Positions 592-62,835 of a DNA stretch of 64,000 bases are shown piece by piece (positions within the stretch are counted from its first letter, which is position 1; the number at the start of each line of letters is the position of its first letter). The notes beneath the pieces were generated by a model. It searched no databases. It was not told where the DNA came from and saw only the letters and a list, made by a program, of their open reading frames with translations. The stretch is from Tethya wilhelma (Eukaryota; Porifera; Demospongiae; Tethyida; Tethyidae): assembly GCA_964030475.1 (NCBI GenBank), contig CAXIPT010000004.1, positions 605,422 through 669,421 of the forward strand. Reading direction: 5' to 3'. Made by a program: the position numbers and the translations under genes.

Positions 592-3500
592 ATAGTGGTC
601 ATGGTTGAGGGATGATTTTTGAAAAATGTTTATCTTACTTTTGACTCAGCTTCTTCATGTGTTTGTTCCAGTGTCTCTTGGTACAACTGAATTTTATCTT
701 GTAAAGCACTTCGTGTCTTCATCAGTTGACCTCTTGTCCTGTCTAGCTCGACATAGGTTTCAGTGTATTGACCTTTGACCCTCTCTAGCTCAGCTCTGGT
801 GCTATTCAGTTCACCTCTGTACTCTTCCACTTGTTTCCTGATCTGTTTCACTTGTTGGTTTTTGCCCATCACCTCAATATTCCTTTCTTTGACAGTTTCA
901 TCTAGTTGTTGCTTGAGTTTGGCAACTTCTTCTTGCACTCTTTCAAATTGTTCATTCAGAGCTGCCTTCTCCCTCAGTATTTCCTGGCAAGCTGCCTGCA
1001 AACAAGCAACTTCATCATTGTGCCGTCCAGCTGCATCTTCACGATCTTTCCTTTCTCTTTCAAAATCTTCTTTATACTGTATTGCCTGTAAAAAATCCAG
1101 TATGAATATACATAACTGTATAATACCATGAATTATGTATACCTGGTGTCTAGCAACTTTAAGTTCATCTTGTAGGTCCCGGGTCCGTTTATCATTCTCC
1201 TTGACTTTAGCTGTAAGAGTTGAAACTTGTGTTCTGAAATGTTCCAATTGTCCTTTGATTCGATCAAGAGGTTCTTGTTGAACCATTAACTTATGATGCT
1301 CCTGTTGGATCTCTTCAAATCTCTGCTTTAGAACAATATTCTCTCTGCCAACCACAGCCAGATCTTTCTCTTTCTGAACAATATCAGCCCTCAATGCTTG
1401 TAGTTCAGCCTGCATGGCCAGCAGGACAAAAAATATATCTATTTAAAACAACCAACAAGCATAGCAGACAATATCCTTACATCAACTAAATTCTGCTGTG
1501 TCTCCACTTGGCCAAAAGCTACTTCTCTTTCAGCCAATTCTTGTTGGTAGGAGTCATACTGAGATCTACGATTTGCAGTTATTGTTATTGAACAATGCAT
1601 GTTACTTACCATTAGGCGTCTTTCTTTTAGTCGACTTTTCAACTTTTGAACTTTTTTTCCAAGAAGTTCTTTGTCTGTTTTGAGAAAGCTGGCCTCCTTG
1701 GCATTAGTTTCTACTAGCTCTTTAAGTACAAATGCCATTTCTTTGAAAGTTCCATACTGTTCTTTTAGGCTCTCAAATGTAGAGAATTGCTCATTCAAAG
1801 TCTGAAAATTTCTCTGCCAAATCCCTGCTTGTAAACTGATTTCATGTAACTTTCGATTACTTTCCTGTCAAAGAAATAGATAGTAATGGAAAAAAAAATA
1901 TGATAAGATTATTACTATAGGCTGTCTATAGCTTTAGCTAATCATTAAGGCAGCCAATTTACATTTAGTTGAGATTGAAGTTGAATTATAGCTAGATTCT
2001 TGTCCAAGATTTCTTGATAATGATCTTTAAGAGGCTTGCTTTCATGTACAGCAGCTTGCAAACTCTCCATGGATTGCTGTATAAGCTTCAGATACTCATA
2101 CAAAACATACCGTGGCAAAAGTTGCCCATACTATACTGGCTAACCTCTAGTTTGCTAATAGTGTCTTTTACAGCATCATTTTCTTGCTTCCAGAGACGTC
2201 CATCTTCCCTTTCATGCTATATATTAAAATTTTAAAAAAAGTTACTATCCCTGCATGCATTAATAATTATTATGCTAAACATTACGAATTAATTCCTTCA
2301 AGTTATTATACTCACATCAAGAGTATATTGTAGTTCTTCTACTTTATTCATGAAAACATCAATTTCTAACTATATTAATGAAAGAAAGTGTTATGCAAAA
2401 TTTGATTAATAATGCATGATTGTTATAAGATTTTTCCTGGTTTATATTCATCTTATATTATACACATCACCCTAATAATTATTATAATGAACCTGAGATG
2501 TCTCGAGCTTGTCTTTTGATTCATTCAACTGCATTTGAAGAGTTTCAACACTGCAATTAGCTGCTTTTGACTTTCTTAAAACATGAAGTTCTGCCTAAAA
2601 AAATTTCAGGTTTATAATAGGAATAATTTATTGCCATTCATACACACATTACATGCATTTCTTTCAGACACACTATACTGATTCAGGACATCAATCTCAT
2701 TGCATGGTTGAAAATTAACCATGTTAACAGAAAATTTAATAATAATTTATAGCAACAGTTACTGCTGTAATAATGATCATCATCAAGCATGCATCCATGC
2801 ACACATTACCTTAGCTTTGCTAAGATCAGCACTTAAACTCTTCACTCTGCTCTTCAGAAATGGAGAGTGATCAGCGGCTTGCAATCTTACTTGAGCCTCT
2901 AAGGTCTGTATCTTCTTGTCTTTTTCCTCAAGAACTTCTCTTATCTGTTTTTCTGTCTCGGCTGATTCGGTTTGAAGTTTAGCTAGCTTGTCCTGCAATT
3001 CTTTCAACTGTTCATCTGTCTCAGCTAATTTGGCTTTCAATGTTTCATTTTGCTGTTCAGTTTCTTGTGTCTGTCTCATGGTTTTATCAATTGTACTCTT
3101 TAGATTCTTTTCTCCCTCTTTTTTCACCTCAGCTAACTTGCACTCACTTTCTATTTGCATCTCAGCTAATCTTTCTTCCATTTCTTTCTTGTGTTTGTTA
3201 GTAGCTTCAGTCAAAATTCTCTCAATTTCTTGTCTTTTCTGTTCTTTATTCTCAGCTCTAACTCTATCAATTTGTTCCCTACTCTCCTCTCCTGATTTGG
3301 TCTTCACATCATTTTGTATGCAAAATGCAGCACTTCCTTTTGTCAAATCTATCATTACATCACCACCAGTTGCTGTGGGAGAATCATTGATGGATGAAGA
3401 AATTTCAAGAGGATGAGGATGACAACTGCCTGACTTGGTGTTGGATAGTTCACAGATTGTGGTTCAGATTTGTAATCCTTAAATGGAAACTCATGTCCGA

Positions 3501-3846
3501 TAGTACTTTGAGGTGATGCCGTTGTGTTCTTCATGCTACCACCACTGCTTGACTTTCTTGAAGATCGTCCAGTCACTTTCTTTGCTTTGGAAACTAATTT
3601 CTTAATTGCACTTTTCTTCTTTGGTTTAGCACGAGAAGAACTGCTAAACGCTCTATGATGGTCAAAATCCTCTTCTAGCTCTCCCTGTTCAAGGGGTGTG
3701 TCTCCAGAGGGAGATGGACTGACTGCGGATAGAGGAGTTGCCCCGCCTACTTCATGTACCTCACTGCCATGATCTGTTGTTTTGTGCGTGTGAGGGTCAT
3801 CTTTGTTTCCTTTCTTTTTGCTTTTTTCAGGCTTGCCTGCGTCCAT
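1..3846 (-). CDS. Gene A: UBAN-like coiled-coil adaptor, 3' end outside window
   Basis: The start (MDAGKPEKSKKKG) is at 3846; the gene runs leftwards off the window. The N-terminus is Ser/Pro-rich with a TPL/SP cluster and a basic stretch (KKLVSKAKKVTGRSSRK) shared with gene B. Coiled-coil exons follow at about 3400-2810, 2594-2493, 2370-2312, 2220-2146, 2085-1963, 1865-1612, 1565-1482 and 1412-1142. Exon 1085-639 holds YKEDFERERKDRE, the UBAN-type motif. Two Pro/Gln-rich exons (about 548-411 and 302-88) join in frame through a phase-1 junction, and a GTAAGT donor at 87 shows the gene continues. The Pro/Gln-rich part matches the region before the zinc finger in E, H and J, so a zinc-finger ending is expected but not seen. 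The frame is broken near 3410-3445 between exon 1 and the next segment. Exon boundaries come from GT/AG sites and paralogue alignment by eye. Confidence 0.75.
549..590. repeat. (GT)n microsatellite in gene A intron
   Basis: An unbroken GT run of about 42 bp between the UBAN-like exon and the first Pro/Gln-rich exon. Confidence 0.97.
639..1085 (-). other. UBAN-like exon of gene A
   Basis: A 149-codon phase-0 exon starting AIQYKEDFERERKDREDA; the UBAN-type core is intact. It ends at a GTAAGA donor beside a (TG)n microsatellite. Confidence 0.65.
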
Positions 3847-4242: not shown

Positions 4243-5196
4243 CTACAATGGAATCATACCAAGTTTATTCAGTTGAATCAACACTTTGTTGAGGTCTTGA
4301 AGTTTGCGTGGAAACTTGCCACTGAGTTCTTTCATCATTGTGTTCAGTTCCATGGTACTTGGTCTTGCCTTGCTGTCATCTTGAAGGCACTGGTGAATGA
4401 GAGGATAGAGGAAATGTTGGTTTCCGATCTTAGACATCCACTGTCTGCGTTTGTAGAGCTCAGATTCTCCTTTAGTTACGATAACATCTGGTACGTTTTG
4501 CCATGAGAATTCTGGGAACTCTTGTAAAGCAACAAACAAAGCTAGTACACCAAACGAAAAGATGTCTAACTTTAGATTGTACTCTGGTTTGTCTTGAAGA
4601 GCCTCTGGAGGCATGTAGCCCATGGTACCAGGAGTTTTAGAGAGTTCTTGTGAGTGTCGAGCTTCAACAATCCTTGAGACACCAAGATCGGCTATCTTGG
4701 CTCGTAGGTTTGAAGTAAGAAGGATGTTGCCTGCTGTCAGATCGCGATGAAGGATCGATCGGTTGTGGAGATGAAGAAGACCATAGGTCACATCGACAAG
4801 AATGGAAAACCTAATTGAAAGAGGAATGAAAAGTTTTTCCACTTGATATGTTTCAAGACACTTTTTAAGATCTATTGGTAGACGCTCCATGACAAGAGTG
4901 AGATCGTACTTGTCTCGGCCGTATCGTACCCCCATGAACTGTACGATGTTAGGATGTCGAATCTTGCTCAGGAGGATGCATTCTTGACGAAACTTTTCCT
5001 CAATGCCTCTTCTTTGCAGCCCTTGTACATCGTAGTGCTGAGCAGGGATGAGGATGTCTTGAACTCGTTTAGCGATGCACTGAATCCCGTCTATTTCAAC
5101 AGCATAGACAGTTCCATAGCAACCAGTTCCCACTTTCCTACTAGCAGGTAGGGGGTCTTGAAAGTGAAGTCTGTACGGAGCTAGTTCATCATCAAC
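4243..5196 (-). other. Kinase-domain exon of gene B
   Basis: A single exon carries the whole kinase. Visible motifs in order are a Gly-rich loop GTGCYGTVYAV, the beta-3 Lys in CIAKRVQ, an alpha-C Glu in FRQECILLSKIRHPN, the catalytic loop HRDLTAGNILL, DLG in KIADLGVSR, a GTMGYMPPEAL P+1 loop, DIFSFGVL and ARPSTMEL. The Lys usual in Ser/Thr kinase HRDLKxxN is Thr here. The N-lobe insert DILIPAQHYDVQGLQRR is shared with gene G but not with D or F. Confidence 0.9.
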
Positions 5197-8100
5197 CTAA
5201 ACAAAATGAGCATATTATTGTCACACTGACTGCATGTGATGAGCGTTTCTAAAAATCTTTTAGCTTACAGAAGTTTGATTTTTCTTTTGAAGTTCTCCAC
5301 GGTGCCACTGAAGTTGAGATTGGTATTCTTGTACTGCGGTTCTGCTTCTCTGCAAATCTTCCCTCAACCTGGCAGTCTATATATGCATACCAAGTAAGCA
5401 TGCACACATCACATCATAGGAGTGTTAATTTGAATAGTTAACTTACTACTTGTGTCTCTTCTTGAACTCTTGCTTGGGTTTGCAGTAGTTGACCGCTCAC
5501 CCTGTCTAACTCTATACAGGTTTCAGTGTATTGACCTTTGACCCTCTCTAGCTCAGCTCTGGTGTTATTCAGTTCAACTCTGTACTCTTCCACTTGTTTC
5601 CTGATCTGTTTCACTTGTTGGTTCTTGCCCATCACCTCAACAGTCTTCTCCTTCACAGTATCTGCTAGCTGTTGCCTGAGCCGAGCAACTTCTCTTTGAA
5701 CTCTTTCCAGACTATCTTCGATACCTTTCTTCTCATGTAGTGTTAGCTCAAGATTCTTTTCTTTTGTCTGCCTGTCTTCATCAATTTCATCAACTTTAGT
5801 TTGCAAGCTTTCATTTGTCCCAGTCATCATCTGAAGCTCCTCCTTCAGGTGGTCAAGCTGATCGCTGAGGTGTGCTGCACTTTGTTCAAATCCAGCTTTA
5901 GCTTGTTTTGTGATTTCTAGTTCTTTGTTGAGCTGAGCAAGATGCTGTGTACTCTCATCTCTGGCTTCCTCAAAGGTCTTTCGCTGGTTGTCAGTCTCCT
6001 TTTTGAGTTCAGTTATCCTTTCTTCTTTTTGTAAGTTTTCTACTTTCAGTTTGTCAATCTCTGCCTTCAGTAGTTCCTCTTGAGTGCGAAGTTCATCTGC
6101 TACTTTTTGACTGTCCACTTGCCAGCGAGCTTTGTCTTGATCATAACGTCCAGCAGCTTCTTCACGATCCTTTCTTTCTCTTTCAAAATCCTCTTTGTAT
6201 TGAGCCGCCTATTCAGAACAAAATATTGGTTTAGTGATCTATAAATTAATGTATTTTTCGTACCTCCAGTTTTCTGACTTCAATTTCAGTATACAACTCT
6301 TCAACAACGTCCAGTAAACGATTTCTTTCAGCAGTAATTTTGTGCAACTCTTCTTTGATAGCTTTTAACTCATCATTCAGTGTTCCTTTGATATCTATTG
6401 CCTGCATACACGATGAGCAAAATAAATTATTACAGTCACATGCAGTCAAACAATTTGACAATGTCCTAAATTACCACTATTTTTCTTGCTTCAAGTTCAT
6501 CTTCCAACTGTTGAACTTGTTTCAGTAGCTCTTCTTTCTCTTGTGTGAGAGTGCTGGCTTTATTAGCAATAGTCTCTACCTGCTCTTTAAGACTAGTAGC
6601 CATCTCTTTGAAAATTTCATACTGAGACTTCATACGGTCAAATCCAGAGAGTTGATCATTTAATCTCTGGTTAGATCTACGAAGAGAATCATAATGTCCT
6701 CGTAGATCTTCTAATTCAACATTAGCTTCACGTAACTTCCGATTATCCTCCAGTTTTACTACCTGTAAAAAAAAACGACAATAAAACACACACACATGGC
6801 AATAAAGACACATGACTAAAGTATTATTTTTAAATGTACATGACTATTACTAACCTCTAATCTCTTAATGGTATCCTTTGCACCATCATTTTCTTGTTTC
6901 CAAGTAAGGCTTTCACCCTCAAAATGTGCTATTTCATGCTACAATTAAGTTTATGATAAAAACGTGAATAATTATTATATTCAATCAGATAAGTGAATTG
7001 ATTCCTGCTCACATGAAGATCTTGCTGCTGGTCTGTTACTTTGAAATTCACTAAATAGTACAGTGCACACACAATATACCTTTGCTTTTTCGAGCTGCCT
7101 TTTCAATTCCGTCACTATCCTGCTCTGTTCTTTAGCACCTACTAGCTTCTCTCTCTTACTGGCAATTGTCTGAAATGACCTCACTTGAACCTCTAGACTC
7201 TCTATCTTCTTGTCTTTCTCTTCAACAACTTGTCTCAGTCGGACCACCTCTGTCTTTGGATCATCACCTGGTGAGAGACTGCCATCAGCTCTCAAGGAAC
7301 GAGTCACATTAAGGTAGGCTTCACTAGTGCTGGCTTTTTGATCACATAACTGCTTCAATTCTTCATCTCTAGATTTAAGCTTCTCTAGTAACTCCATCTT
7401 TTCTCCATGCACTTTCAGGTAGTTCTTTCGTAAACGTTCTAAAGTAGCTTGTTGCTCAGCCTCCTCTCTGTCCTGGTCATCTTGTGTCTGTATTGACTTC
7501 CTCAGACGATCTAATTCCTCTCGGAGTTGGTCTGACTCTTGACGAAGTCTCTCTGATTCCTGCTGGGTGTCTTCCAACTGTTTCTCTAGCTGCTCCACCT
7601 TCTGAGTATCAGTCAGGTTGGGGGGCTGGTTAGGGTAAGGGTGAGGGAGAACATTGTGATACACCTTGATGTAACAAGTAGTAATACGTACTGTAGGAAT
7701 GGGCAGTGCTGTAAATGTAAGACTCTGAATTTCGGCACATGACTACTGTATTTTCATTCTGTGATGGACTGCATGAATTCATAAGTCAGCATATTGCATC
7801 ACGTCAAAATTATAGCCATGCAGGTTATTGCAACCATTATAATATTCATGACTCATCGATCAGAATCAGATACAAAAGACTTGGATAAAAAAAATGAGGT
7901 AGTCATGAGCCGAAATTCAGAGCTAGCCCTACCTTTACCCCCTGAAAAACCCTGTAATATGGTATAAGCATGCAAATTAGAACACTGCCTAGATTTTGTT
8001 TGTGGATNTGTGTGTGTGTGTGTGTGTGTATGTGTATCAGATAAAATCAACCATTGCTGATGTACCATACATTATGGGTTGTCAATAGCTCAATGGTAGT

Positions 8101-11100
8101 AAATGTCACACAATGTCATGCCAAGATAGTAAAGGAATGGGTGTAGTTTACATGAAGTTAACTTCAAACAGAGGAAGTGGCCATAACTACAAACCACTTC
8201 ACTGCTGAGTCAGCAAAAAAAATGGAACTGCTGACTTAGCAACTAACTTTTAGGAAAGAATTAACTCACATGTGGTAGTTGTAGCAGTGGTTCATCAGGA
8301 TCAGCAGAGGAGCTAAACCCGGGAAGTGGTGGACTAGCCATTTGTTGTTTCATGTCAGCAATCACTTTCAACTGATGAAACTCTTCCTTCAGTTGTTCAT
8401 GTTCTTCTTGTAGCTGTCTGAACTGTTCTTGAAGATCTTCATCACGCTGATTGTATTTAGCTTCTTCCTTCAGTCGTCTAATCTCCTTCTCAGACTTCTC
8501 GACTAGTCTTCGCAAGTACTCCTTTTCAGCTGTGGCACCATCCAGACTGTCTTCTTTGTCTTTTAGCTGCTCTTTCAGCTCTTTATACTTAGCTGTATTT
8601 TGCAGCTCTTGTAATTTTTGACTATCACTTGTTTCTTTCACAGTACTTTGTAGTGTCTTCAGTTTCATTTCCATTTCAGCCGTTTCATCAACATGTCTCT
8701 TGTTTTCACTTTCAATCTGTGCTTGGAGCTCCTTGACAGTTTTGTCGTGTTCCTCAACCATTAACTTTTTCTCTTCATCATTGGTTTGCTTTAGTTGTTT
8801 GATTTCGTCTTCATGTTGTTGCTGAAGTTCAACTTGTATTTCAACTCTTAATGTTTCAATCTGTGCATCTTGAACACTACCACCAGCGAGGTCAATTTCT
8901 TTTGCTTGTTCAGCCAATTCTAGTTGGTCTTGGAGCTGTTTGATCATCTCATCTTTCTGTTCTATGTCAGCTCTGAGCTTTTCAGTTTCATCATTTTTGT
9001 GAATATCAGCCAATTGTTGCTTTAGCTCTTCCAATTCTTGTTCTTTTGCTTGTTGCACATTCCTCATTTCAGTCAACTTGGCTTTCAGTGTTTCATTCTG
9101 TTGTTGAGTTCCTTTCAATGTTCTTCCAGTTGCAGCAGCCATTTGTCTTGTGGTATTGCCAATTGCAAGCTTCAGATTCCACTCACCCTCCCTCATGACC
9201 TCAGCTAATCTTTCCTCCATTTCTTTCCTGTGTTTGTTAGTAGCTTCAGTCAAAATCCTTTCAATTTCTAGTCGTCTTTGTTCTTCACTCTCACCTCTAA
9301 GTCTATCAATTTGTTCCATGCTCTCCTGACGAAGTCTTTGGATAGTGTCTTCTGCTTCACTTTGTCTTCGTATCAGATCACTATGCTCTCTTTGTAACCT
9401 TTCATACTCTGACTCATCTCCTGGTTTGGTCTTCACATCAGTTGTACTGCTGTCATTTTGTAAGTAAAACATAGCACCTTCTTTTTGAGTACTATCTTCT
9501 CCAGAGACATCAGGTGTTGCACCATCTCCACCATGGGATGTCTTGCTACCATCAACAGGTGATCCTGGTTTGTCATCAGCACTGCTTGAGGTAGGTTCAT
9601 GTTGTAGATCAGGTACAGTTTCTATAGTGGTGTTTCCACCTCCTTCTTGCTCTGTACATATACTTGGTCCTGGTGATCCAGCTCTCAGACCACGAGGAGT
9701 CTGGCCACTTATAAGGAATGGCTTAGATTCGTCATCAGTACTAGATTTGAACACAGTTTCAGTTTCGTTTTCCCCCAGAGGTGGCTTAGGATCGGTGGCT
9801 GTGGGTGTGGCATTATTAGAATCATTGGTTTGAGAATTCTCCAGAGGATGACGTCGAGGATTGGTTGGTGTCTGACCTGGAGTTGTTGGGTTTGAGGGAG
9901 TTAATACTATCTGATCATGTGAAACATCTTCCTGAGATCCTGTTTCTTTCTTGAGAGTTTCCTGATCTTTCAATTGTCTAACTTGTTCCCTTGACTCTGC
10001 CAACAGTTGATCTCTCTGAGCTAGCTGAGCTCTCAAGGCTTCAATTTCTTGTTGAGTGTTTGTTGGTGTTGCAACAGGGGTAGCAGCTGAGCTAGAAGGA
10101 GTCAGAGTGTTTGTTGGTGATGACAGCTGCTGGTCATATGACTCTTTTCCTGGTAGGTGAAGATCCTGTGTACAACAGGAGATACAAGAATACCAAAAAT
10201 GGGTTACACATACAGTATAATGTAGTGTAATTAAAGTATGATATAATAATTCCGAGCGAAGCGAGACTAGATTTGCTGTATACAAAAAAAAGTTATGCAA
10301 GTGGTGGTAGTGGTGGTGGTGGTGGTGGTGGTGTCGACACACCTTGCCGAGAACTGGACTCTGGTAGAATAGCTCAACAAAGTAAGTAGATTTTATTGGC
10401 TATGTATGGCTCGAAGATCCGAGTCAGTCTCTGGAGTGACTTTTAAAGACAGATTCCATTGCTAAATGGCATTTTTGGCCAACTGACGGCAAACCTAAAA
10501 GTAGTTTTTAGAATTGACGATCCGATCCTGTCTGAAAAATGGACTCTGGTAGATCGAGAAACTAAGCAAAATTAACAAATTTTACTAGCTTGAACAGTCT
10601 CTTGGCCAACTTCTAGCAATGGTTTCCATTGCTAACTTGCATTTCTGGACTAAACCTGAAAGTAATTTTCTAAATTGACGATCCGATCCTTTCAATTTTG
10701 ACTCATGTTAGTCTTTTGTTTTCTTTCTTGACGATCCAGTCCTATTAATATAATAACTATAGCATGCATGTATGAGCAGAGTGCAACTGGCGAGCATGCA
10801 GTGCGTGCAGGAGCGCTGAGCGAGATTTATGCATCACGTATACCCCTAGTTATAGTATGCATCCTTGTATACAAGTCATAATCTTCAAATAACTGATTGG
10901 TAGACTTTAAAAAACACACCATGATTAATTTTATGTGTTCACTTACCAATTTTGGAGCCACTGTGTCAGATTGGGCAAGTGTTGATGGGAACTTTGTGGA
11001 TGATGGTTCAAATTTGTAGTCCTCCAGTGAAACAACATCTTCAGAGTCTTTCAAGTGAGGAACATCTTCAAATGATGAGTAAATATCTGGTCGTGAGGTC

Positions 11101-11699
11101 AGCTGTTTCTGTAAGGGAGACACTACACATTGAGGTGATGTAGGACTCCATATGCTACCACTGCTAGACTTTCTTGAAGATCGTCCTGTTACTTTCTTTG
11201 CTTTGGAAACAAATTTTTGAAAACGATTTTTTTTCTTCTGCTTTCCAGAAGCTGAGCTATCATTACTGGCTCCATCATCAAATTCTTCACCATCTTCATC
11301 TAGCTCTCCATGAAGGGGTTGATCATGAGGTGTGTCACTAGGGTGTGGGAGTGTTTGCTGTGCATTTGGAGACAATGGAGTAACACCACCTTCCTTTACA
11401 ATGTCATGTACTCCTTCTTTCTTGCGATGATCACCGCCCTGTTGACTGGATAATTTCTTACTGAGCTCACTTTTCTTTGGCCTGTCAGGAGTAGAACTGG
11501 TATTTACCCCATCATCATCCTCTCTCTCTCCTTGTTGAGACTGTTCAAGGGGTGTGTCCTCAGAGGGAGGTGGACTGACTGGGGACAATGGAGTTGCTCC
11601 TTCTCCTACAGGTACTCCTTGGTCTGGAGTTTTTGGAGGATCATCTTTGGACTTATTTTCTCCTTTATTTTTGTCTTCCTTTGGCTTGCCTCCACCCAT
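4243..11699 (-). CDS. Gene B: UBAN-like coiled coil fused to C-terminal TKL/RIPK-like kinase
   Basis: The start MGGGKPKEDK is at 11699. Exon 1 (11699-10947) is Ser/Pro-rich, acidic and basic in turn, with repeated TPLSP motifs. Exon 2 (about 10166-8270) is a 630-residue Gln/Glu/Lys-rich coiled coil. Exon about 7626-7080 starts PPNLTDTQKVEQLEKQ; short coiled-coil exons lie between 6900 and 6250. Exon 6208-5447 carries YKEDFERERKDREEAAGRY (UBAN-type) followed by further coil. The last exon (5196-4243) is a full kinase domain ending GMIPL. UBAN coils in NEMO, optineurin and ABIN bind linear ubiquitin; kinases with a DLG motif include RIPK1. I infer a cytosolic signalling kinase with its own ubiquitin-reading coil. 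An exact kappaB consensus lies 150 bp upstream. Very close to D in layout. Confidence 0.82.
5447..6208 (-). other. UBAN-like exon of gene B
   Basis: The exon opens AAQYKEDFERERKDREEA. The D-F-x-x-E-R-x-x-R-E core matches the UBAN core of NEMO (D311, F312, E315, R316, R319, E320). About 240 residues of coiled coil follow, ending with the shared stretch GKNQQVKQIRKQVEEYR. This is a family-level inference from the motif; no alignment was run. Confidence 0.65.
7626..8269. other. Gene B intron with (TG)n and ambiguous base
   Basis: A 640-bp intron. (TG)n lies at about 8008-8028 with an N at 8007. The stretch 8116-8215 is homologous to 20070-20310 in gene D. Confidence 0.7.
10168..10946. repeat. 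Gene B first intron: two degenerate direct repeats and a (GGT)n tract
   Basis: A (GGT)n tract is at about 10302-10332. Two roughly 170-bp degenerate copies run about 10353-10530 and 10540-10700; both contain GGACTCTGGTAGA, TTCCATTGCTAA and TTGACGATCCGATCCT. Confidence 0.6.
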
Positions 11700-11787: not shown

Positions 11788-11859
11788 GGGCGGGTCTCAT
11801 CACGAGATTGTATGATTACGTTATTATCATTTCAGTTGTGAGAAATTTGGGAATTTCCC
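11788..11859. promoter_or_regulatory. Gene B promoter module: GGGCGGG, TTACGTTA, kappaB
   Basis: GGGCGGGTCTCATCACG at 11788 is shared with the D/E promoter. TTACGTTA is at 11816-11823 and GGGAATTTCCC at 11849-11859, an exact kappaB consensus 150 bp upstream of B. Confidence 0.6.
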
Positions 11860-11916
11860 TGTGCATACACGAACACACAAACACTAATTTTTTTCCCAAG
11901 TACTTGCATACTGATA

Positions 11917-12305
11917 TCATACTAAGCTGCAATCAGAAAACTGATAGATAGGTTTGATTTCCCAGTCAGTCTGAAGTCGCACATCCTCCCATTCATCGTC
12001 AAGTTGTTTCATCACTTCTTCACTACCCCTAACCACAAACCACCAACGTAAGGGTTTATCTTTGTCAGTAGATTCCTTGTACTTGCGCTTGACTTGAAGC
12101 TCTTCCTTTGGGATGCTAGTAAGTGCCGTCAGTGTGGATAATACTGCTGAAACTGTGGTTGTCTTCAACGTGCCCCATATCTTTCTTGCTCCTTCTACTC
12201 TTTCTTTTTGTCCTGATGTGGTACTGTCAAGAGAATTCAAAATCTTAGGTTCAGGTTCTGCTCCTGTAACTTTCTGTGTGGGCTTTCTCCGCCTGGTGCT
12301 CCGTC
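11917..12305 (-). other. ARKIWGTLK domain exon of gene C
   Basis: About 90 residues with conserved blocks ARKIWGTLKTTTVSAVLSTL, VKRKYK, WWFVVRGSEEVMKQLDDEW and LQTDWEIKP. The same domain occurs in gene I (56300-56570) on the other strand with near-identical DNA. I do not recognise the family. The mix of Trp-rich strands and charged helices suggests a small folded module. Confidence 0.6.
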
Positions 12306-21297: not shown

Positions 21298-21335
<38 letters not shown>

Positions 21336-22015
21336 CCTCGTCCCCAGGCCCTCTGCGTGCTACTATTGTTGATTTATTACGTTGACGATCCTTACCAGAT
21401 GATTTTATTTAAGCACGCAGAGGGCCTGGGAAACGAGGGTAGACGCATGGTAGACAAGTGATTTTGCGCGTGGGCAGGACTGCTTAGACTGCCCACGTAT
21501 TTTGCATATGACATCATCAGTTTGTGAATAATTTTGTGAGCCAATGCTGCGCGCAAGCGCTTTGGCCTGGAGGTAGACTACAAGCGCAGCCAATCTGAGC
21601 TTGAAGGCCAGATGACAGAAGTCAAAAGATCAAGACCAGACAAAACAGCCAAGTAAACATAAATTTGGACTTAGTCACCTTAGATATGAGTGATATGTCC
21701 AGACATCGGTTCTTTTTGCTCAAACTTTCTTGCTGCTTTGAGACATTTTGGCAGGCATTCCCTAGCGCAGTGCTGTGCTACTCTGACAAAAAACGCTGCT
21801 CTTTTGTCTTGCTTCGCGGGCTTGTTCACAAGAAAAAAATCTTCAAGTCTTGCTTGCGGTTAGGCCGCCTACGCTACAAGTTTTCTGATGTCATTCACGT
21901 GATTTCGTTCACCAGGCCTTCTGCGTGCTAAAAAATTACGAAAATGGTAAAGATCGTCAACTTAATAAATCAATACTAGCAGCACGCAGAAGGCCTGGGA
22001 ACGAGGCTGTGTGTG

Positions 22016-22046
<31 letters not shown>

Positions 22047-27791: not shown

Positions 27792-27839
<48 letters not shown>

Positions 27840-40000: not shown

Positions 40001-40168
40001 TTGCAAGTACCTGAGAGGCGTACGCGTATCTTCAAGATTCACTTTTGTGGAGCCTATCTTGAGTGAAATACTTGAAACAATCGAAGTAAAAAAATTGCTG
40101 AGTCAGCACCTGTTCTTGGTTTCCCAATCGCCTGGTTGACTTCTCTGAGAGGTCGTGAGAGTGCAGCT

Positions 40169-52056: not shown

Positions 52057-55000
52057 ATGGCTTGGTCTGGTCGAGGCTACGTTCATTCATTTAATCCTGA
52101 AGAAGAAAACCAAGAAAAACCTAGAAAAACAGACTCAGAGAACGAAAAACGTTCACGAGGAGGTAGCATCTTAGGGAACGTGATGAGTCTCTTGAGCGGC
52201 GGTCATAGTCAGGGTCAAACAAAAACTCGTTCTCCAAAGCAAAACCGGCAGAAGGCTAAAGCTGTTACCACTCAGCCAACCTCTAACAGTCCCGGACTAC
52301 AAAAAGCGTTTGATTTGCCTGATGAACAGACTGTCCCGGCCTCAGAGAGAAAACATGACCGTCAAAACCAGTATGAGGGATGGGTGGATACACACTCAGA
52401 TAAGGTAAGTGCTGTGAAGTACATGGCCATTTTAGTTTATTTCCCCCTGCTTTTATTTAGGTAATGCCTGACAGGGACTTTAGCAACCCCAATCATGAGG
52501 TTATGGCACCACAAGTGGCAGTAGATCCCAGTGACACTTCTGAGGTTGGCACGCATCAAGAGGAGACTGATTTTTTCAAAGGCAAGCACCACAAAGGGTC
52601 TGGAGTGTCTCGAGATGCGACTCGTTCTCCCCAGCCTCGAAAGAGAGGGAAGGATTTAACTGAAAATGAAAGACAGCTAATGGAAGCCATTGATGAGAGG
52701 ACTATGGAAAAGAGCGAACTGCAAGAAAAACTATCCAAGGCCAACCAAGAAATACTTCATCTACCTGATCAGGTTAGGCAGCTGGTAACTGAATCAGAAG
52801 AAAGAATGACACAAAAGAGATCTAAGGAAGGGAGTGGTGACCATCAATCTGCTGAAGGTGAAACTGATCATTTGAAGCAGAGAGTTCATGAACTTGAGAG
52901 TCAGCTTGCCAAACTCAAAGAACACTCAAAATTTCAAAGTCGTAAGGTTTACAAGTTGAAAGAAGAGGCAGTAGGACCTGAGGTATAATAGTTTGTTATT
53001 GATTGCATGTTTATGTAGTCAAAATGATTGTGTTCATTTTACAGATGCAGGAAGAGACAATACAGTCTTACGAAGGCATTATTCAGGATTTAGAGGTAAG
53101 TATCCATGCTAGCTAATGATTTCTAATGAATATTATTGCTTTTTAGTAGAAACGTGAAGAAAAGTTACAAAAGGATCTTCGTAGCACTCGTTCAGAATTA
53201 GAAACCATGGTCTTTGAGAATGACTTTGCTGATGAGAGAAGAGATAGAGAAGCAGCTCATGGCATAATAGCTGACCTGGAGAAGAAACTGGCTCATCAGG
53301 AAAATCTCTTTACTGAAGAGAAGGCAGAATACCATCGACAGCTGGCCATAGCTCAACAGTATGCTGAAAGTGCTAGGAAAGAGTTTGAGCAAGCCAAGAA
53401 AGAGATGGAAAAACTTAAATTTGCCATAAGTAAGAAACAGAGAACAAAGGAAATGGAGGATGTTGATTTCTGGCGTGGCCAAGCAGCTACACTGCAGCAT
53501 CAAATACAAGAAATATCTAACTATATTTCTGACTTAGAGCAGTCACTATCTCATACCACAATCTTGCAGAAAGACTGTCAAGACAAAGATACCCTGATAG
53601 AACAGTTGAGGAAAGAAATAGAAAAAAAGGTTAGTTAAGGTATATGTATATATGTCACTCTTAAGACGTTGTTTGTTGTTTTTTGAATCAGAGTAAGGAT
53701 CTTGACAAAATGACAAAGAAAGTCAATAATTTGGAAGAAGAAATTAAGAAGAAAAAGAAGAAAGACTCTGGTGCAGAAGCTCCCCAAGAAACAGTGGATG
53801 CTCAGAAACTTGCAAGAACCGAACAGCCGGTATACAATAATGCTAGTGTTGAACTTCAGGTACACCTATCAGGTTTGAGATGCTATATGGAATGACAATA
53901 TTATATCTCTCTCCTCTAGGAATTGCATAAAGAGTTGAGGAAATGGCAAGGAAGATATCAAGTAAGGAGGTTGCTTGGAATGATTTTGAAGTTTTACCAC
54001 ATTATATTTTCGTATCTCTATATTCCCAGCAATTGCAGAATGAAAATAGTGAGCTGAAAAGACAAGTTCAAGCAATGCAAGTCAGCTTTAAAGAACAGGT
54101 ATGTAACAACTGTCAATTGATACTTATCAGAAAATGTACAGAGATATAGGAATGAGTATACGTATGTACCCACATATAGGACAAACAAATCCAAAAGATT
54201 GCCACCACTCCGAATCCCTCACTAGCTATAGTCAACCACCAGCTCCAGATAAGTGACATACAAGACCACCAAATGGTACATGTATGTAACCCTGCAACAT
54301 AATATATATACTATATTCCATTCTGCTTCCATACATGCATGCACACACGTGATTGCAAAAGTTACCACCAGACCTTCAAATTGCCAAAGCTCACATTTCC
54401 AACTCCTCTTCAGAGCACAATGGATATTTATCAACACCAATATATAGAGAATCTGACATAAATATGGAAAGCGTAAAAGGAGCTAGAAAGATATGGGGTA
54501 CCTTGAAGACGACTACAGTTTCAGCAGTGTTATCCACACTGACGGTACTGACTAGCATCTCACAGGGAGACATTAATTACTTCATCTACCTGATCAGGTT
54601 AGGCAGCTGGTAACTGAATCAGAAGAAAGAATGACACAAAAGAGATCTAAGGAAGGGAGTGGTGACCATCAATCTGCTGAAGGTGAAACTGATCATTTGA
54701 AGCAGAGAGTTCATGAACTTGAGAGTCAGCTTGCCAAACTCAAAGAACACTCAAAATTTCAAAGTCGTAAGGTTTACAAGTTGAAAGAAGAGGCAGTAGG
54801 ACCTGAGGTATAATAGTTTGTTATTGATTGCATGTTTATGTAGTCAAAATGATTGTGTTCATTTTACAGATGCAGGAAGAGACAATACAGTCTTACGAAG
54901 GCATTATTCAGGATTTAGAGGTAAGTATCCATGCTAGCTAATGATTTCTAATGAATATTATTGCTTTTTAGTAGAAACGTGAAGAAAAGTTACAAAAGGA

Positions 55001-58000
55001 TCTTCGTAGCACTCGTTCAGAATTAGAAACCATGGTCTTTGAGAATGACTTTGCTGATGAGAGAAGAGATAGAGAAGCAGCTCATGGCATAATAGCTGAC
55101 CTGGAGAAGAAACTGGCTCATCAGGAAAATCTCTTTACTGAAGAGAAGGCAGAATACCATCGACAGCTGGCCATAGCTCAACAGTATGCTGAAAGTGCTA
55201 GGAAAGAGTTTGAGCAAGCCAAGAAAGAGATGGAAAAACTTAAATTTGCCATAAGTAAGAAACAGAGAACAAAGGAAATGGAGGATGTTGATTTCTGGCG
55301 TGGCCAAGCAGCTACACTGCAGCATCAAATACAAGAAATATCTAACTATATTTCTGACTTAGAGCAGTCACTATCTCATACCACAATCTTGCAGAAAGAC
55401 TGTCAAGACAAAGATACCCTGATAGAACAGTTGAGGAAAGAAATAGAAAAAAAGGTTAGTTAAGGTATATGTATATATGTCACTCTTAAGACGTTGTTTG
55501 TTGTTTTTTGAATCAGAGTAAGGATCTTGACAAAATGACAAAGAAAGTCAATAATTTGGAAGAAGAAATTAAGAAGAAAAAGAAGAAAGACTCTGGTGCA
55601 GAAGCTCCCCAAGAAACAGTGGATGCTCAGAAACTTGCAAGAACCGAACAGCCGGTATACAATAATGCTAGTGTTGAACTTCAGGTACACCTATCAGGTT
55701 TGAGATGCTATATGGAATGACAATATTATATCTCTCTCCTCTAGGAATTGCATAAAGAGTTGAGGAAATGGCAAGGAAGATATCAAGTAAGGAGGTTGCT
55801 TGGAATGATTTTGAAGTTTTACCACATTATATTTTCGTATCTCTATATTCCCAGCAATTGCAGAATGAAAATAGTGAGCTGAAAAGACAAGTTCAAGCAA
55901 TGCAAGTCAGCTTTAAAGAACAGGTATGTAACAACTGTCAATTGATACTTATCAGAAAATGTACAGAGATATAGGAATGAGTATACGTATGTACCCACAT
56001 ATAGGACAAACAAATCCAAAAGATTGCCACCACTCCGAATCCCTCACTAGCTATAGTCAACCACCAGCTCCAGATAAGTGACATACAAGACCACCAAATG
56101 GTACATGTATGTAACCCTGCAACATAATATATATACTATATTCCATTCTGCTTCCATACATGCATGCACACACGTGATTGCAAAAGTTACCACCAGACCT
56201 TCAAATTGCCAAAGCTCACATTTCCAACTCCTCTTCAGAGCACAATGGATATTTATCAACACCAATATATAGAGAATCTGACATAAATATGGAAAGCGTA
56301 AAAGGAGCTAGAAAGATATGGGGTACCTTGAAGACGACTACAGTTTCAGCAGTGTTATCCACACTGACGGTACTGACTAGCATCTCACAGGGAGACATTA
56401 AAGTCAAGCGCAAGTACAAGAAATCTACTGACAAAGATAAACCTTGTTTATATTGGTGGTTTGTAGTTAGAGGTAGTGAAGAAGTAATGAAGCAACTTGA
56501 TGATGAATGGGGAATTGTATTGCTGCAGACAAACTGGAAAATTAAACCTGTTTTCAAATTTTCTGATTCAATCTCTCAAGGCACTACTGGACAGCAGCTT
56601 CAATCTCTTCAAGTAAGACATTTCGACAGTGACTACCAGCAGTATACCTCTGGTGGCCCAGATGAGGCTACTGGTCACATTCCTCACAGCTACCCGATAG
56701 AAGGTCCTGCCCGTCCGTGGCATTTAGATGGAAAAGTACCAGGTTAACTTTTTGTTAATACATGCACACTATTTTTGTACAATGTGCATGAATCATGTTG
56801 CACATTCAGACACAGATGTAGAACAAGAAGATCATGAATATGTAAACCAACAAGGAATAGACAATGATCTACTAGAGGATTATATTGTTCCTCAACACTC
56901 TGAACACAGGCTCAGAAGTCCCACTAGTGAAAGATATGCTGGTGGAAAGCCTCCAGGTATAATTATTATTATTATTATTTGAATTACACACCACAAATAA
57001 TATTATATAAATTACTACATCACTTTTCACTTACAATTCTTTTTTATGTAATACAGTTCCTAAACCACGTACAATTGCCCCTCATGCCAGCAAAGTCCCT
57101 GCTTCAGAGTTCTACAACCTAGCTGATCTTCAACCTGGAGGAAATGCTGCCTTATCACAACAACTTGTACAAGACGATCATGATTATGTAAACCAAGAAA
57201 TGGAAGATGATCTACTAGAGGATAATATTGTTCCTCAACACTCTGAACACTGGCTCAGAAGTCCCACTAGTGAAGGATATGCTGGTGGAAAGCCTCCAGG
57301 TATAATACTAGTAGTATGATGCCTTGCGTCGCTAATTAATGCACTCGGCAATTATATGGATAATTAATTACTGTGTCACTTCTGAGTGACTTCTCATTAA
57401 TTTTACCACAATTCAATACAGCTCCTACACCACGTACAATTTCCCTTCATACCAGCTCTTCTCAAATCAAAGTCCCTGCTTCTGAGGTCTACCACCCAGC
57501 TGATCTTCAACCTGGAGGAAATGCTGCCTTGCCACAACAGCTTGTTCAGCCTCCTGAAGCTGATTGTACACCCCAACTTGTACCAAGTCTGAACACAGAC
57601 ACAGATGTAGTACAAGACGATCATGATTATGTAAACCAAGAAATGGAAGATGATCTACTAGAGGATAACATTGTTCCTCAACACTCTGAACACTGGCTCA
57701 GAAGTCCCACTAGTGAAGAATATGCTGGTGGAAAGCCTCCAGGTATATGTTACTGCATCACTTCTCTTTACAATTATTATTATAAATTGCTAAGTCATGA
57801 TTGCAATGATGATGATTAATTTTCAATACAGTGGCTACCCCACGTTCTCATGTGCACGTGGTAGCTCAAGCTCAAGACAACGGCTCTTTGAAAGTTGATT
57901 CGATGGAACCTTCACCTCTTCCATTGGACTCCAATAAACTTATGTCTGACATTGATGATCCCAACTGTTTGATGTGTCCGGTGCCACGATGTAATGAAAG

Positions 58001-58115
58001 GTTCAGGATTGTAGAGATTCAGAATTTTCTTCGGCATGTTGACAAGTGTCGACTTAATAATAATGATTGTGAAGATAATGAGAATAATTTGTTTCTATAT
58101 CCCTCTAATATATAG
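52057..58115 (+). CDS. Gene I: mosaic family member with internal 1825-bp duplication, unknown domain and zinc finger
   Basis: The start is ATG at 52057 (MAWSGRGYVHSF). Exons: 52057-52404, about 52461-52984, 53045-53095, 53150-53629 (NDFADERRDREAAH, UBAN-like), 53692-53858, 53920-53961, 54030-54099 and 54180-54273. The set from mid-exon 2 onward is then repeated 1825 bp downstream. The last duplicated exon (56187-56742) encodes ARKIWGTLKTTTVS and WWFVVRGSEEV. Four phase-1 exons follow (56810-56956, 57057-57299, 57422-57742, 57832-58115); the first three repeat VPQHSEH and AGGKPPG. The end is a C2HC-like finger with altered spacing. Copy 1 of the unknown-domain exon runs into a stop at 54613, so the mRNA must skip part of the duplication, or the duplication is an assembly artefact. 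Confidence 0.75.
52753..56402 (+). repeat. Tandem direct duplication, two 1825-bp units, inside gene I
   Basis: Unit 1 is 52753-54577 and unit 2 is 54578-56402. All lines I compared are identical, including introns. The first unit starts inside a coiled-coil exon and the last base of each unit differs. The junction cuts the ARKIWGTLK-domain exon after ISQGDI. Only a 1-bp overlap is visible at the breakpoints. Confidence 0.9.
53150..53629 (+). other. UBAN-like exon of gene I, copy 1 (copy 2 at 54975-55454)
   Basis: KREEKLQKDLRSTRSELET leads straight into MVFENDFADERRDREAAH. In gene J these two blocks lie in separate exons 340 bp apart, so I lost an exon end, an intron and an exon start. The core is DFxxERxxRE. 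Confidence 0.6.
56187..56742 (+). other. ARKIWGTLK-domain exon of gene I (intact copy)
   Basis: Contains GARKIWGTLKTTTVSAVL, VKRKYKKSTDKDK, WWFVVRGSEEVMKQL and WKIKPVFKFSD, then a segment (QYTSGGPDEATG) matching the Pro/Gln-rich exon of H. It ends in phase 1. The truncated sister copy is at 54362-54613. Confidence 0.65.
57955..58050 (+). other. Atypical C2HC-like zinc finger of gene I
   Basis: DDPNCLMCPVPRCNERF then RIVEIQ and HVDKC. Aligned with H, the first pair is CPVPRC (Cx4C) instead of CPMC; an extra Cys two residues upstream of MC gives an alternative CLMC pair. Confidence 0.55.
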
Positions 58116-58531: not shown

Positions 58532-61500
58532 ATGGCAGGCTTTGTAGCAAGTTTTCATCAAACTCCGCTTCCTGAACAACTCGATCAACCTAAAGAGAAA
58601 GAGAGTGGACCTGATAAGCCTAGAAAGCCAAACTCAGAGAAAGAGACTCGTTCACGAGCCGGTAGCATTCGGAACATGTTCAATTTCTTTGGTCATTCTC
58701 AGGGTCAGAAATCTCCTCCTCCAAAGCAGAAGCAGAAGTCAACTAAAACTTCTGGAACTGTTACAACTCAGCCAAAACCGTCAAACACTCCTGAACTACA
58801 CAAAGCATTTGATTTGTCTGATAACAATCAAAGCCAGTATGAGGGATGGGTGTATCCACACACAGATGAGGTAAGTTTTAAACTAAATGGTTTGACCATA
58901 ATTTTATATTTCCTGCTGATGTTAGGTAATACCTGATATAGACTTCAGGCCTGATCATGGGATGGTGGATCCTGGTGGCACTTCTGAGGTTGGCACACAT
59001 CAAGAGGAGACTGATTATTTCAAAGGCAAGCACCACAAAGGGTCTGGAGTGTCTCGAGATGCGACTCGTTCTCCCCAGTCTCGCAAGAGAGGAAAGGATT
59101 TAACTGAAAATGAAAGACAGCTGATGGAAGCCATTGATGAGAGGACTATGGAAAAGAGTCAACTGCAAGAAAAATTATCCAAGGCCAACCAAGAAATACT
59201 TGTTTTACGTGATCAGGTTAGGCAGCTGGTAACTGAATCAGAAGAAAGAAAGAGATCCAAGGAAGGGAGTGGTGACCATCAATCTGCTGGAAGTGAAAAT
59301 GATCTTTTAAAGCAGAGAGTTCGTGAACTTGAAAGTGAGCTTACCAAACGTAAAGAACACTCAAAATCTCAAAGTCGTAAGGTTATGAAGTTGAAAGAAG
59401 AAGCAGTAGGAGCTGAGGTATAAATATTATTGATTGCATGTCTATTTAGTCAAAATGAATGTCAGCATGTGTTTATTTTAATTACAGATGCAGGAAGAGA
59501 CAATACAGTCGTACGAAGGTATTATTCAGGATTTGGAGGTATGTATCCATGCTAGCTAATGATTTCTAATGAATATTATTGCTTTTTATTTGCAGAAACG
59601 TGAAGAAAAGTTACAAAAGGATCTTCGTAGCACTCGTTCAGAATTGGAAACAGTTACAAAGTACAAGGAGCTTACTGAAAGAGAGCTTATAGCGATCAAA
59701 GAAGAGGCGTTTCGTGCAAAAACTGAAAATGAAGACCTACGAGATCAAATGCAGAGGCTTTCAAAGTCCATTGAAGGCCAAAACAATCTAAAGAGAGAAA
59801 ACCACAAACTTTCAAATGAAAATAAAATGCTGAAAGATCAGCTAGAAACTACTAAAGCCCAGGTACGTGTGACATGTAATATATGTAATCTATTGTTACA
59901 TGTGTGTATAGACATGAATGACAAATTTGCATTTTCATTCATTTGTGCAAACCATACAATCTGTCATATGTCACTATACCATTATTTATAATCATAAATT
60001 ATTCACTCCAGGCATGGATAATAATTATGTTAATGTTGATTAAGTCATATGTTAATGTTGATTAAGTCATCAGTGACTTTGCAATAACAATTCTTGAATG
60101 TTTTATATTATATTGTTAACTAAATGCACACATGTTTTCTAAATAGTACACACCAAAGGCTATTGGGTGATTTTCTTAATGCACAAACTTTCACAATCCA
60201 TAGGTCGTGGTCTTTGAATCTGAGTTTACTGATGAGAGAAGAGATAGAGAAGCAGCTCACAGTAAGCTAGCTGATCTAGAGAAAAAACTGGCTCAACAGG
60301 AAGGGCTTTATACCGAAGAGAAGGCAGAATACAATCGACAGCTGGCCATAGCTCATCAGGAGGTTGAGACTACAAGGAAGGAGCTTCAACATGCTAATAA
60401 AATGCTTCAAAAACAAAACAAGACTACACTAAGTAAGAAACAAAACACAAGTGAAGCTGATGACGTTGACTTTTGGCGAAACCAAGTAGTTACATTGAAA
60501 CATAAGATAGAAGAGACGTCAAAATATGTTTCTGAATTGGAAGAGTTCAGATCTCGTATCACAGATTTGGAAAAGGACTGCCAAGACAAACACAACCAGG
60601 TGGAACAGTTGAGGAAGGAACTAGAGAAAAAGGTTAGTTGAGGTAAACTGCATGTATGTATAGATTATTATTTAGGTATAACTTTTCTGAATCAGAATAA
60701 GGATCTTGACAAGATGACAAAGAAAGTCAATAAGTTAGAAGAAGAAGCCAAGAAGAAGAAGAAGAAGAAGAAAGACTCTGGTGCAACAGTTCCAGAAGTG
60801 CCACCTCCTCAAGAGAGTGTAGAAGCTCAAAAACGTGCAAGAACTGAACTGCTGTACAATGATGCTAGTGTTGAACTTCAGGTATACCTATCAGTTTTAA
60901 AAAAATACTTTGGAATGACAATAATTATCTCTCTCCTCTAGGAATTGCATAAAGAGTTGAGGAAATGGCAAGGAAGATACCAAGTAAGGAGGTTTTTTTT
61001 AAGTTTTACCACATTATATTTTCGTATCTCTATTCCCAGCAATTGCAGAATGAAAATAGTGAGCTAAAGCGACAAGTTGAGGTAATGCAAGTTAGCTTTA
61101 AAGAACAGGTATGTAACAACCATATCAATAATTATCACAAAATGTATACATAATAAGTGAAGATGAGTACGAGTGATTTAACTATATGTACCCACTGCCA
61201 TAATAGGACAAACAAATCCAAAAGATTGCCACTACTCCTGATGATCCCTCACTAGTCAACCACCAGCTCCAGATAAGTGACACACAGACAGGAGATATCA
61301 CAAATGATGTTCCTGCTCTGAGAAACATCCCTAACCTACCTCTGAGAGCTACTGCTACTGCTATGTTTGATGCTGACGTTGTTACTGACTCAGCCAGTCC
61401 ACGCCAAACGTCTAAAGGACCTCTAAGAGCTGTTGATCCAAATGTTCAGTCTGACAATCTACCATCACCAAATCCTTCTGGTCCAACCAACGAACCGTTT

Positions 61501-62835
61501 CCCAGTCAGGGCACTCCCCTCCCTCATGTGTCTGCTGATACAGTGCCAGCTGCTACCAATTATCACCAGGGACAGCCTCTCACTGTCGCTGACCAGATGC
61601 AACGATTTGGATCTGTTATGCAACCTTGTGGCCAAGTTAATCCTGGAACTGTCCTACCTCCTCAAGTACGTACTGCTCCTCCTGGTCCAGTAGGTCCACA
61701 TGGAATGAATGATTATGTCAATATAAACCAATTTCATCAACCACAGCAACCCTTTCAACCACAACCAGGCTATGCTCCTGGTCAACAAATGGTTTCAGAT
61801 TCACAATACCCAGCTCAACAAGGTTCAGGTGAGAATGAATTTGAGGCACTGTTTCAAAAACAGAGGCTGGAACGAGAGCAACAGAAACAGTACCAACTTC
61901 ACCACCAGCAAGTAAAAGAAGAGGAGTATCAATTCCAGCAGCAAGAAACCCAAGCACGAGAGCTGAGAATTGCACAGCTTCGTCAACAACAAGCTCAGGC
62001 TCAGGCCTACCAGCAACCTGTTCAAGGCCAACTTCAGCAGCAACCTGTTCAAGGACAAGCTCAAGGCTACCAGCAGAAATATGTTCAGGGTCAAGTAGTT
62101 ACCTATGAGAACACTGGAATATCTCAACACAACTTCCCTCCTAGCCAAGCTCCTTTCAACCAGGCACCTCCTGACCAGCAGTACAATCATCAAGGTGGTG
62201 CTACAGATCCTAACAACCTCCAATACCAACCCAATCCTGTTCACGTTGCTGACACCGATGGATTCAATTCAGCCGGGACACCATCTGAAACTCCAGAGGA
62301 GGGAAATTTCGTTCAACCCCAAGAAAGTAGTAATGGAAGTGATCAGGCAACTGACTCACTAGTTGGTGGGCAGAAACTTTCAGTTGGAGCTGCCCCGCGA
62401 CCTCATAGTGATGATGTGTCGTCCAACAGATTGAATGAAGAAACAGTTCAACCTAAATCGAAATCTACTCCATTCCAAAGTTCATCAAATGACGAAACTT
62501 TTCAAGAAACTCCTCCTCAAGAAGTTCTCACTCCCTCGGAAGAAGCTCCCCCTAACCAAACCAATCCTAGTCTCCCCCCTGATGTTGATCCAAGCGAAAG
62601 CCTCGGAGATCAGAGATTTGCCAACGTCCTCCAAGACTCCATTGATACTGACATTTCTCAGCATGCAGCTGAAGTGATGGAGCAAGTTAGTTCACGTCGT
62701 GAACGTGAAGTCACAAACACTGATCGTCCTTTCGACCCCAACTTGGTGTGTCCGATATGTAACAGAGCATTCAGGATTGGAGAGATTCAGAAATTTAGAG
62801 CTCACGTGAACCAATGTGAGGGGAAGAAAAATTAA
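58532..62835 (+). CDS. Gene J: UBAN-like coiled-coil adaptor with poly-Gln-rich region and zinc finger
   Basis: The start is ATG at 58532 (MAGFVASFHQTPLPEQ). Exons: 58532-58870, 58926-59417, 59488-59538, 59596-59862, 60204-60632, 60698-60881, about 60942-60983, 61040-61109 and 61208-62835. The coil includes KEHSKSQSRKVMKLKEE and VVFESEFTDERRDREAAH, a variant UBAN-like core with Glu for Asp. The last exon encodes a Pro-rich part and then a Gln-rich helix-like stretch (about 61830-62090), and ends RPFDPNLVCPICNRAF...AHVNQCEGKKN. J is the undisturbed version of I and gives the reference exon order. A kappaB-like site abutting a TATA box lies 71 bp upstream. Confidence 0.87.
60204..60632 (+). other. 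UBAN-like exon of gene J
   Basis: VVFESEFTDERRDREAAHSK at the exon start; Asp of the DF pair is Glu, the rest of the core is intact. Confidence 0.5.
62725..62832 (+). other. C2HC zinc finger of gene J
   Basis: RPFDPNLVCPIC then x14-H-x3-C (HVNQC) and a short basic end (EGKKN), as in H. Confidence 0.7.

Follow-up and report, generated by a model that had tools for sequence, protein, structure and literature searches.

A demosponge gene array predicted to join a UBAN coil to either a kinase or a zinc finger

A tandem array of ten related genes

The window analyzed here is a 64 kb stretch of contig C4 of the sponge Tethya wilhelma (C4:605422-669421), set within a searched genome of 124.6 Mb in 204 contigs. 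It holds ten related genes, A to J, most of which carry a motif of the ubiquitin-reading UBAN in a long coiled coil and several of which end in either a protein kinase or a C2HC zinc finger. The genes were modelled by exon chaining with a home-made gene finder trained on the window, which was run gene by gene because other settings merged or split neighbouring genes. Genes A-D lie on the minus strand and E-J on the plus strand:

Gene A, 639..3846, minus strand: basic N-terminus and coil with a UBAN motif at 1041-1067 (gene model, motif scan); its 3' part extends past the window's low end, so that the modelled part is given.
Gene B, 4243..11699, minus strand: coil with a UBAN motif at 6164-6190, kinase at 4243-5196 (motif, Pfam, model).
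Gene C, 11832..15876, minus strand: paralogous N-terminus and coil without UBAN; C-terminal domain of the 'WWFVVRG' repeat family.
Gene D, 16201..24660, minus strand: coil with a UBAN motif at 17765-17791, kinase at 16201-17157 (motif scan, model); several small exons are doubtful.
Gene E, 27014..35896, plus strand: coil with a UBAN motif at 32158-32184, disordered region, C2HC finger at 35816-35884; 5' end uncertain.
Gene F, 36356..39663, plus strand: coil without UBAN, kinase at 38698-39663 (model, Pfam).
Gene G, 39965..46814, plus strand: coil with three UBAN motifs (G1 41935-41961, G2 42950-42976, G3 43800-43826), kinase at 45840-46814; predicted as a single gene by exon chaining.
Gene H, 47290..51721, plus strand: coil with a UBAN motif at 48912-48938, disordered region, C2HC finger at 51563-51631.
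Gene I, 52057..58115, plus strand: coil with UBAN motifs at 53222-53248 and 55047-55073, 'WWFVVRG' domain, irregular C2HC finger at 57966-58049.
Gene J, 58532..62835, plus strand: coil with a UBAN motif at 60222-60248 (EFTDERRDR), disordered region, C2HC finger at 62749-62817.

A six-frame scan of the window with the pattern [DE]F..ER..R recovers the motif in eight of the ten genes (A, B, D, E, G, H, I and J), the same count as an initial annotation of this DNA had given for DFxxERxxR, and finds it absent from genes C and F. Eleven motifs were observed in 12,640 modelled residues, against 0.015 expected from composition; as they sit in paralogues, they count as one origin and not as independent events. 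At least 21 copies were read genome-wide, 11 in the window and 10 outside it; locus L017, where the motif was not read, was left out of the count of UBAN exons. The array itself extends past the window, spanning roughly C4:565-727 kb, and other contigs hold additional copies.

By a rough measure (stretches of more than 120 residues free of Pro, Trp and Cys), long coils are present in all ten models, gene C included, one more than the nine first proposed. The coils of F, which ends in a kinase, and H, which ends in a finger, are 59% identical over 234 residues, and those of G and H 34% identical over 519 residues. Related coils have therefore been joined to either type of C-terminus.

The coil as a UBAN

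Ten UBAN segments (A, B, D, E, G1-G3, H, I and J, the second, identical copy in gene I being dropped) were combined into a profile, which in a search of PDB sequences returned ABIN2, ABIN1 (twice) and NEMO as its first four rows, all in register. ABIN2 led with an expectation value (E) of 2.7e-7, and the best unrelated coil, vimentin, followed at 0.0033. A broader sponge profile of 14 rows, built from nine segments of this genome, three of Ephydatia, one of Halichondria and one unlabelled, was headed by 20 UBAN chains (ABIN2, NEMO, OPTN and ABIN1; E 8e-10 to 3.1e-6) before the first non-UBAN row, a keratin at E 0.078. Profile-profile comparison by hhalign gave a probability of 97.7% between the sponge UBAN and a profile of ABIN2, ABIN1 and NEMO, versus 35% for a control of 18 non-UBAN coil segments from the same genes.

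The Pfam family CC2-LZ is matched at E<=1 by all ten UBAN segments and, on stretches of >=150 residues, at E<=0.01 by seven of them (A, D, E, G2, G3, H and J). Gene H comes closest to the curated cut-off (33.4 bits, E 6.1e-8, profile positions 7-99 of 100); gene D matches at E 2.2e-6 (profile 6-81 of 100), gene E at 2.6e-6, gene J at 0.0017, and gene A at 5.3e-4 on a 151-residue stretch from which a short intron was removed by analogy with D. No match at E<=0.01 was obtained for B (on a 170-residue stretch), G1 or I, nor for the motif-less gene F. Across the whole genome CC2-LZ has four matches at E<=0.001, all of them in this family: three lie in the C4 array (gene E and two further copies), and the fourth, on C3, adjoins a family kinase and scores 39.6 bits, over the cut-off of 35.3.

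Ordinary coiled coils might arrive at such a motif by convergence, and E-values are inflated for charged coils. Unrelated coils reach E 1.1e-6 in comparable PDB searches; E alone is consequently weak, and the argument rests on the identity of the proteins matched. On that score the 18 control coils are informative: the best 60 of their 360 PDB rows contain not one UBAN protein. CC2-LZ lies outside their 25 commonest Pfam families, so that at most 4 of the 18 can match it at E<=1, whereas the UBAN set matches UBANs first. The genome CC2-LZ, hhalign and 14-row profile tests likewise speak strongly against convergence, which we regard as barely credible.

Hydrophobic residues peak at 0 and 3 modulo 7 from the motif Phe in all four sets compared, a register in line with NEMO and ABIN in a 45-column alignment based on sequence only. 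By profile, profile-profile comparison and register, the sponge coil is thus a UBAN in its sequence. The initial annotation had proposed a hidden Markov model search against UBAN/CC2-LZ, and had named the lack of a profile match, or a DFxxER face out of register, as grounds for giving up its proposal; significant matches with UBANs ahead of other coils, and a register that agrees by sequence, were found instead. Its label of 'NEMO/optineurin-like' is not the closest one: the single protein matched best is ABIN2, and 'ERxDRE' is how the motif reads in the ABINs. ABIN1-3 (TNIP1-3) likewise carry a UBAN in a coil, in the form 'DFxxERxDRE'; to our knowledge they are without a kinase. The UBAN proteins listed in a 2020 review are NEMO, ABIN1-3 and optineurin (PMC7226360).

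Optineurin likewise combines a UBAN with a C-terminal finger, and, unlike the sponge kinase members, it has no kinase. The sponge segments possess equivalents of its D474, E478, R479 and R482, and the motif Asp is presumably D472 of TNIP1. These four optineurin residues make contacts in the crystal with linear diubiquitin (PMC4999505), and the TNIP1 substitution D472N is reported to weaken binding (PMC11940065). We matched 28 sponge segments from three sponges to OPTN by spacing. The F, E, R and R of the motif were demanded by the search pattern, which allowed D or E at the D position; accordingly, the equivalents of E478, R479 and R482 are invariant by imposition, and that of D474 is D in 26 of 28 segments and E in 2. 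More telling are the unselected positions: -4 is Y or F in 22/28, +6 is D in 27/28 (the ABIN form), +8 is E in 20/28, and -8, which 19 rows cover, is Q in 15 of them, as it always is in ABIN2, ABIN1 and NEMO. Ubiquitin-contact residues are thus mostly kept.

A coil descended from a UBAN could nonetheless have lost ubiquitin binding in most copies and now serve the kinase solely as a scaffold for dimerisation. Several features are consistent with such decay: Asn occupies the Tyr position in G1, G3 and H, the last Glu is lost in 8 of 28 segments (to Met or Thr in some copies), gene F keeps coil and kinase without the motif, and six pairs of I/J-type UBAN exons have ratios of nonsynonymous to synonymous substitution (dN/dS) of 0.29-0.62. 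However, the Y/F, D and Q at -4, +6 and -8 are kept across three sponges at the frequencies given above, and 15 pairs of A/B/D-type exons show dN/dS of 0.13-0.42, with dS saturated in some. A purely structural coil is, in our judgement, improbable.

The kinase ends

C-terminal kinases had been assigned to B, D, F and G, and all four assignments stand: Pfam matches a kinase in B (E 1.2e-34) and F (E 3e-36), and the kinase ends of D and G were read in the gene models and included in the kinase comparison. Each of the four has IAK with its catalytic Lys, HRDLTAGN and DLG; keeping these key catalytic residues, they are predicted to be active kinases. Among ten kinase pairs dN/dS is 0.21-0.33. Searched with the gene B kinase, the genome returns 17 matches of 77-100% identity and another 115 of 33-51%.

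Possible counterparts of these kinases are of the TKL type (IRAK4, RIPK1/2 and plant CTR1), but the identity of gene B to the human kinase set is only 23-31%. By score, CTR1 is the top PDB kinase for both B and F, and the top animal kinase for F is IRAK4, which also has the highest BLAST score with gene B among ten human kinases. We know of no TKL kinase that carries a UBAN.

A tree of 29 kinase rows, with ten human references, five of them verified, unites the sponge kinases in one clade (support 100/99), which joins IRAK4 (89/85) and then RIPK1/2 (87/91) on long branches; IKK beta falls beside PKA and CDK2 in joins flagged as long-branch. Without PKA and RIPK2, the IRAK4/RIPK grouping is not recovered, the sponge clade stands alone, and IKK beta again makes a long-branch join, with CDK2. 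Neither a clade of the sponge kinases with IKK beta nor one with RIPK1/2 to the exclusion of IRAK4 is rejected by the approximately unbiased test (p-AU 0.116 and 0.127, respectively). A placement on the IRAK/RIPK side, apart from IKK, was suggested by the first tree and was not upheld by the clade test and the second tree. From these sequences IKK is not favoured as the nearest animal relative. The phylogeny suggested in the initial annotation thus delivers a well-supported sponge clade, together with a nearest animal relative that shifts between trees, and this instability makes any analogy with RIPK/IRAK activation loose.

The finger ends

C2HC fingers had been reported at the ends of E, H, I and J. 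Three follow a regular pattern (E at 35816, H at 51563 and J at 62749); the irregular finger of gene I (CLMCPVPRC...HVDKC) lies outside the gene model and was read by eye from the DNA, where its presence makes the four reported fingers correct. Genome-wide, 14 of 15 finger matches fall on C4.

In a comparison of a finger profile with PDB sequences, the nearest entries are the UBZ fingers of TAX1BP1, Pol kappa, NDP52 and FAAP20, at E 0.0027 to 0.4, which is below significance; Foldseek places NDP52 and TAX1BP1 first, also below significance. The spacing C-x2-C-x14-H-x3-C is the same as that of the Pol kappa finger in the alignment, while of six aligned fingers only that of gene I keeps the Asp of the Pol kappa H-x-D-x-C, the other five having N, A, Q or E there. 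The finger thus weakly resembles ubiquitin-binding UBZ fingers. No NEMO or OPTN finger is among the matches listed in the fold searches, and no row named for either appears for five fingers against Pfam (E<=10) or for the finger profile against PDB. The spacing of the NEMO finger presumably differs from that of the sponge finger.

These likenesses raise the main rival to an immune-type reading, namely that the sponge proteins are UBAN-derived cargo receptors of selective autophagy, similar to OPTN, NDP52 or TAX1BP1, whose kinase acts on the receptor or its cargo and not in an NF-kB-like or immune pathway. The finger profile, nearest the UBZ fingers of TAX1BP1, Pol kappa and NDP52, and the Foldseek ranking both point in this direction, as does the double role of optineurin, a UBAN protein that also serves as an autophagy receptor (PMC7226360). 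Even so, we hold this alternative to be unlikely.

Reader and kinase in one predicted chain

The models place UBAN and kinase in a single chain in B, D and G, and likewise in a further gene at C4:564-567 kb, where a stop-free model of five exons and 553 residues runs from coil through UBAN to kinase, with 112 bp between the UBAN and kinase exons. Comparable chains occur in other sponges. From 315 matches, 120 relatives were fetched. Many of the top-ranked ones are unlabelled contigs, and the organism names among them are those of the demosponges Halichondria panicea and Ephydatia muelleri and of Geodia barretti only; Geodia we take to be a demosponge, and labels of the form 'Em0002g...' were read as Ephydatia. 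Five of the 120 hold UBAN and kinase in one chain: the UBAN comes first in Halichondria P0011, the unlabelled P0019 and Ephydatia P0063, and the kinase comes first in Ephydatia P0031 and P0059. All four named fusion proteins are from sponges (7,991 candidates scored). Public records leave the family unnamed; the Halichondria fusion protein, for which STK11 is the top-ranked PDB kinase, is entered as 'cyclin-dependent kinase 11B-like'.

The kinase-first order defines a second branch of the family, in which the UBAN follows and a finger is sometimes last (L018; P0059, P0031, P0121). At L018 (C4:715-718 kb) the kinase precedes the UBAN on one strand, and P0059 (Em0002g1319a) reads kinase, UBAN, finger. 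AlphaFold gave this whole protein a mean predicted local distance difference test score (pLDDT) of 52.6, and most of the kinase scored less than 50. Ephydatia P0121 and P0122 consist of a kinase-like part, UBAN and finger, whereas P0125-P0127 have UBAN and finger only. The Asp of DxG is missing from P0121 and P0122, although their kinase-like part is still joined to UBAN and finger; both are likely pseudokinases.

It could be argued that UBAN and kinase are separate adjoining genes falsely joined by exon chaining, given a home-made finder trained on the window itself and four kinase-first loci (L018, L069, L019 and L025) where the whole kinase is not kept in the joined model. Since the kinase is cut back there, fusion at these loci rests on exon order and on the Ephydatia records. 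False joining is nevertheless hard to square with the closely spaced exons of the single open model at C4:565 kb, or with Halichondria and Ephydatia proteins that were independently predicted and hold both domains, and we deem it very unlikely. The claim of the initial annotation that sensor and kinase form one chain is accordingly sustained for B, D and G and by the Halichondria and Ephydatia records; for gene F, without a UBAN, it fails.

A candidate family of ubiquitin-gated kinases

Vertebrates divide reader and kinase between two proteins, as with NEMO and IKK or OPTN and TBK1. NEMO resembles the finger-ended sponge proteins in having a UBAN in its CC2-LZ region, a disordered linker and a C-terminal finger, but it serves IKK as a separate protein, whereas the sponge kinase members carry their own kinase. 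A search at E<=0.1 gave no match to its N-terminal IKK-binding family in H, in J or in the C4:564-kb gene. Optineurin is phosphorylated by a separate kinase, TBK1, according to the 2020 review (PMC7226360). Judged by sequence, the sponge genes encode a putative new architecture of a known ubiquitin-reader family, common to at least three sponges: the reader is a UBAN nearest ABIN, and the new parts would be the kinase fusion, the exchange of kinase and finger, and the array. Among the titles and abstract openings listed in searches of the open-access literature, none describes a UBAN-kinase fusion or sponge UBANs.

We propose that the array encodes a demosponge family in which a coiled coil bearing a UBAN face runs, in one branch, into a C-terminal C2HC finger (an adaptor form) and, in the other, into a TKL-like kinase (a sensor-kinase form). 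Two coils would pair in parallel, and the resulting dimer would bind ubiquitin chains linked through Met1 and perhaps also through Lys63. Bound chains would cluster the dimers, and the clustered kinases would phosphorylate one another, becoming activated in trans. The kinase would in this way be gated by ubiquitin chains. Kinase-free finger paralogues could pair through their related coils, acting as adaptors or as competitors that tune the signal. A family of adaptor and sensor-kinase forms, with chain-binding dimers and trans-activating kinases, is in our view the probable account. More tentatively, and with somewhat less than even confidence, these may be single-chain ubiquitin-gated kinases (UBAN and TKL-like kinase, with or without a finger) whose mixed dimers decode HOIP-type signals, the swappable ends being laid out in the tandem array.

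Two further findings in the genome favour the proposal. Locus L067 (C1:4764381-4767491) contains exons resembling the RING2 and LDD of a HOIP-type ligase for linear ubiquitin, with PF18091 over its cut-off and an exon sequence that we take to resemble human HOIP; Rel-homology exons are also present over cut-off.

Several observations weigh against the proposal. No window segment reaches the curated CC2-LZ cut-off, and neither OTULIN nor an IKK dimerisation domain was found in the genome search, which cannot show absence. To these are added the E-values attained by unrelated coils, the substitutions at the Tyr and last Glu positions, the motif-less gene F, the unstable kinship of the kinase and its truncation in the kinase-first models.

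Were ubiquitin gating of these kinases to hold, the sponge proteins would represent either a different solution from the NEMO-IKK and RIPK arrangement of vertebrates or an early version of it, and, as far as the literature was searched, a new coupling of ubiquitin chains to phosphorylation. They would offer a simple system for asking whether chain binding alone turns a kinase on, and would bear on the origin of the split NEMO-IKK system.

Other features of the array

At the gene B exon junction 7080/6762 the frame stays open; a seeming in-frame stop in this gene was rejected as an artefact of the model's splice choice. A protein search with the last exon of gene E, apparently of low complexity, returned nothing at E<=0.001. 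Gene I contains an exact tandem duplication of 1,802 bp (52762-54563 and 54587-56388), and its two UBAN motifs are due to this repeated block; the duplication is either a very recent event or an assembly or haplotype effect.

The compact domain 'KIWGTLKTTT...WWFVVRG' occurs in gene C (11932-12198, minus strand) and gene I (56298-56567, plus strand). With zero Pfam matches at E<=10 and 65 genome matches at E<=0.001, it is an unnamed, heavily repeated domain. A second coil motif, approximately VKQ(Y/I)xKQVExY(K/R), follows the UBAN in A, B and D and recurs in Ephydatia proteins, and an upstream motif resembling HSKxQSRxVxxLK recurs in several family members. Between genes I and J, a small inverted repeat (58180-58290), recognised by eye, resembles a miniature inverted-repeat transposable element.

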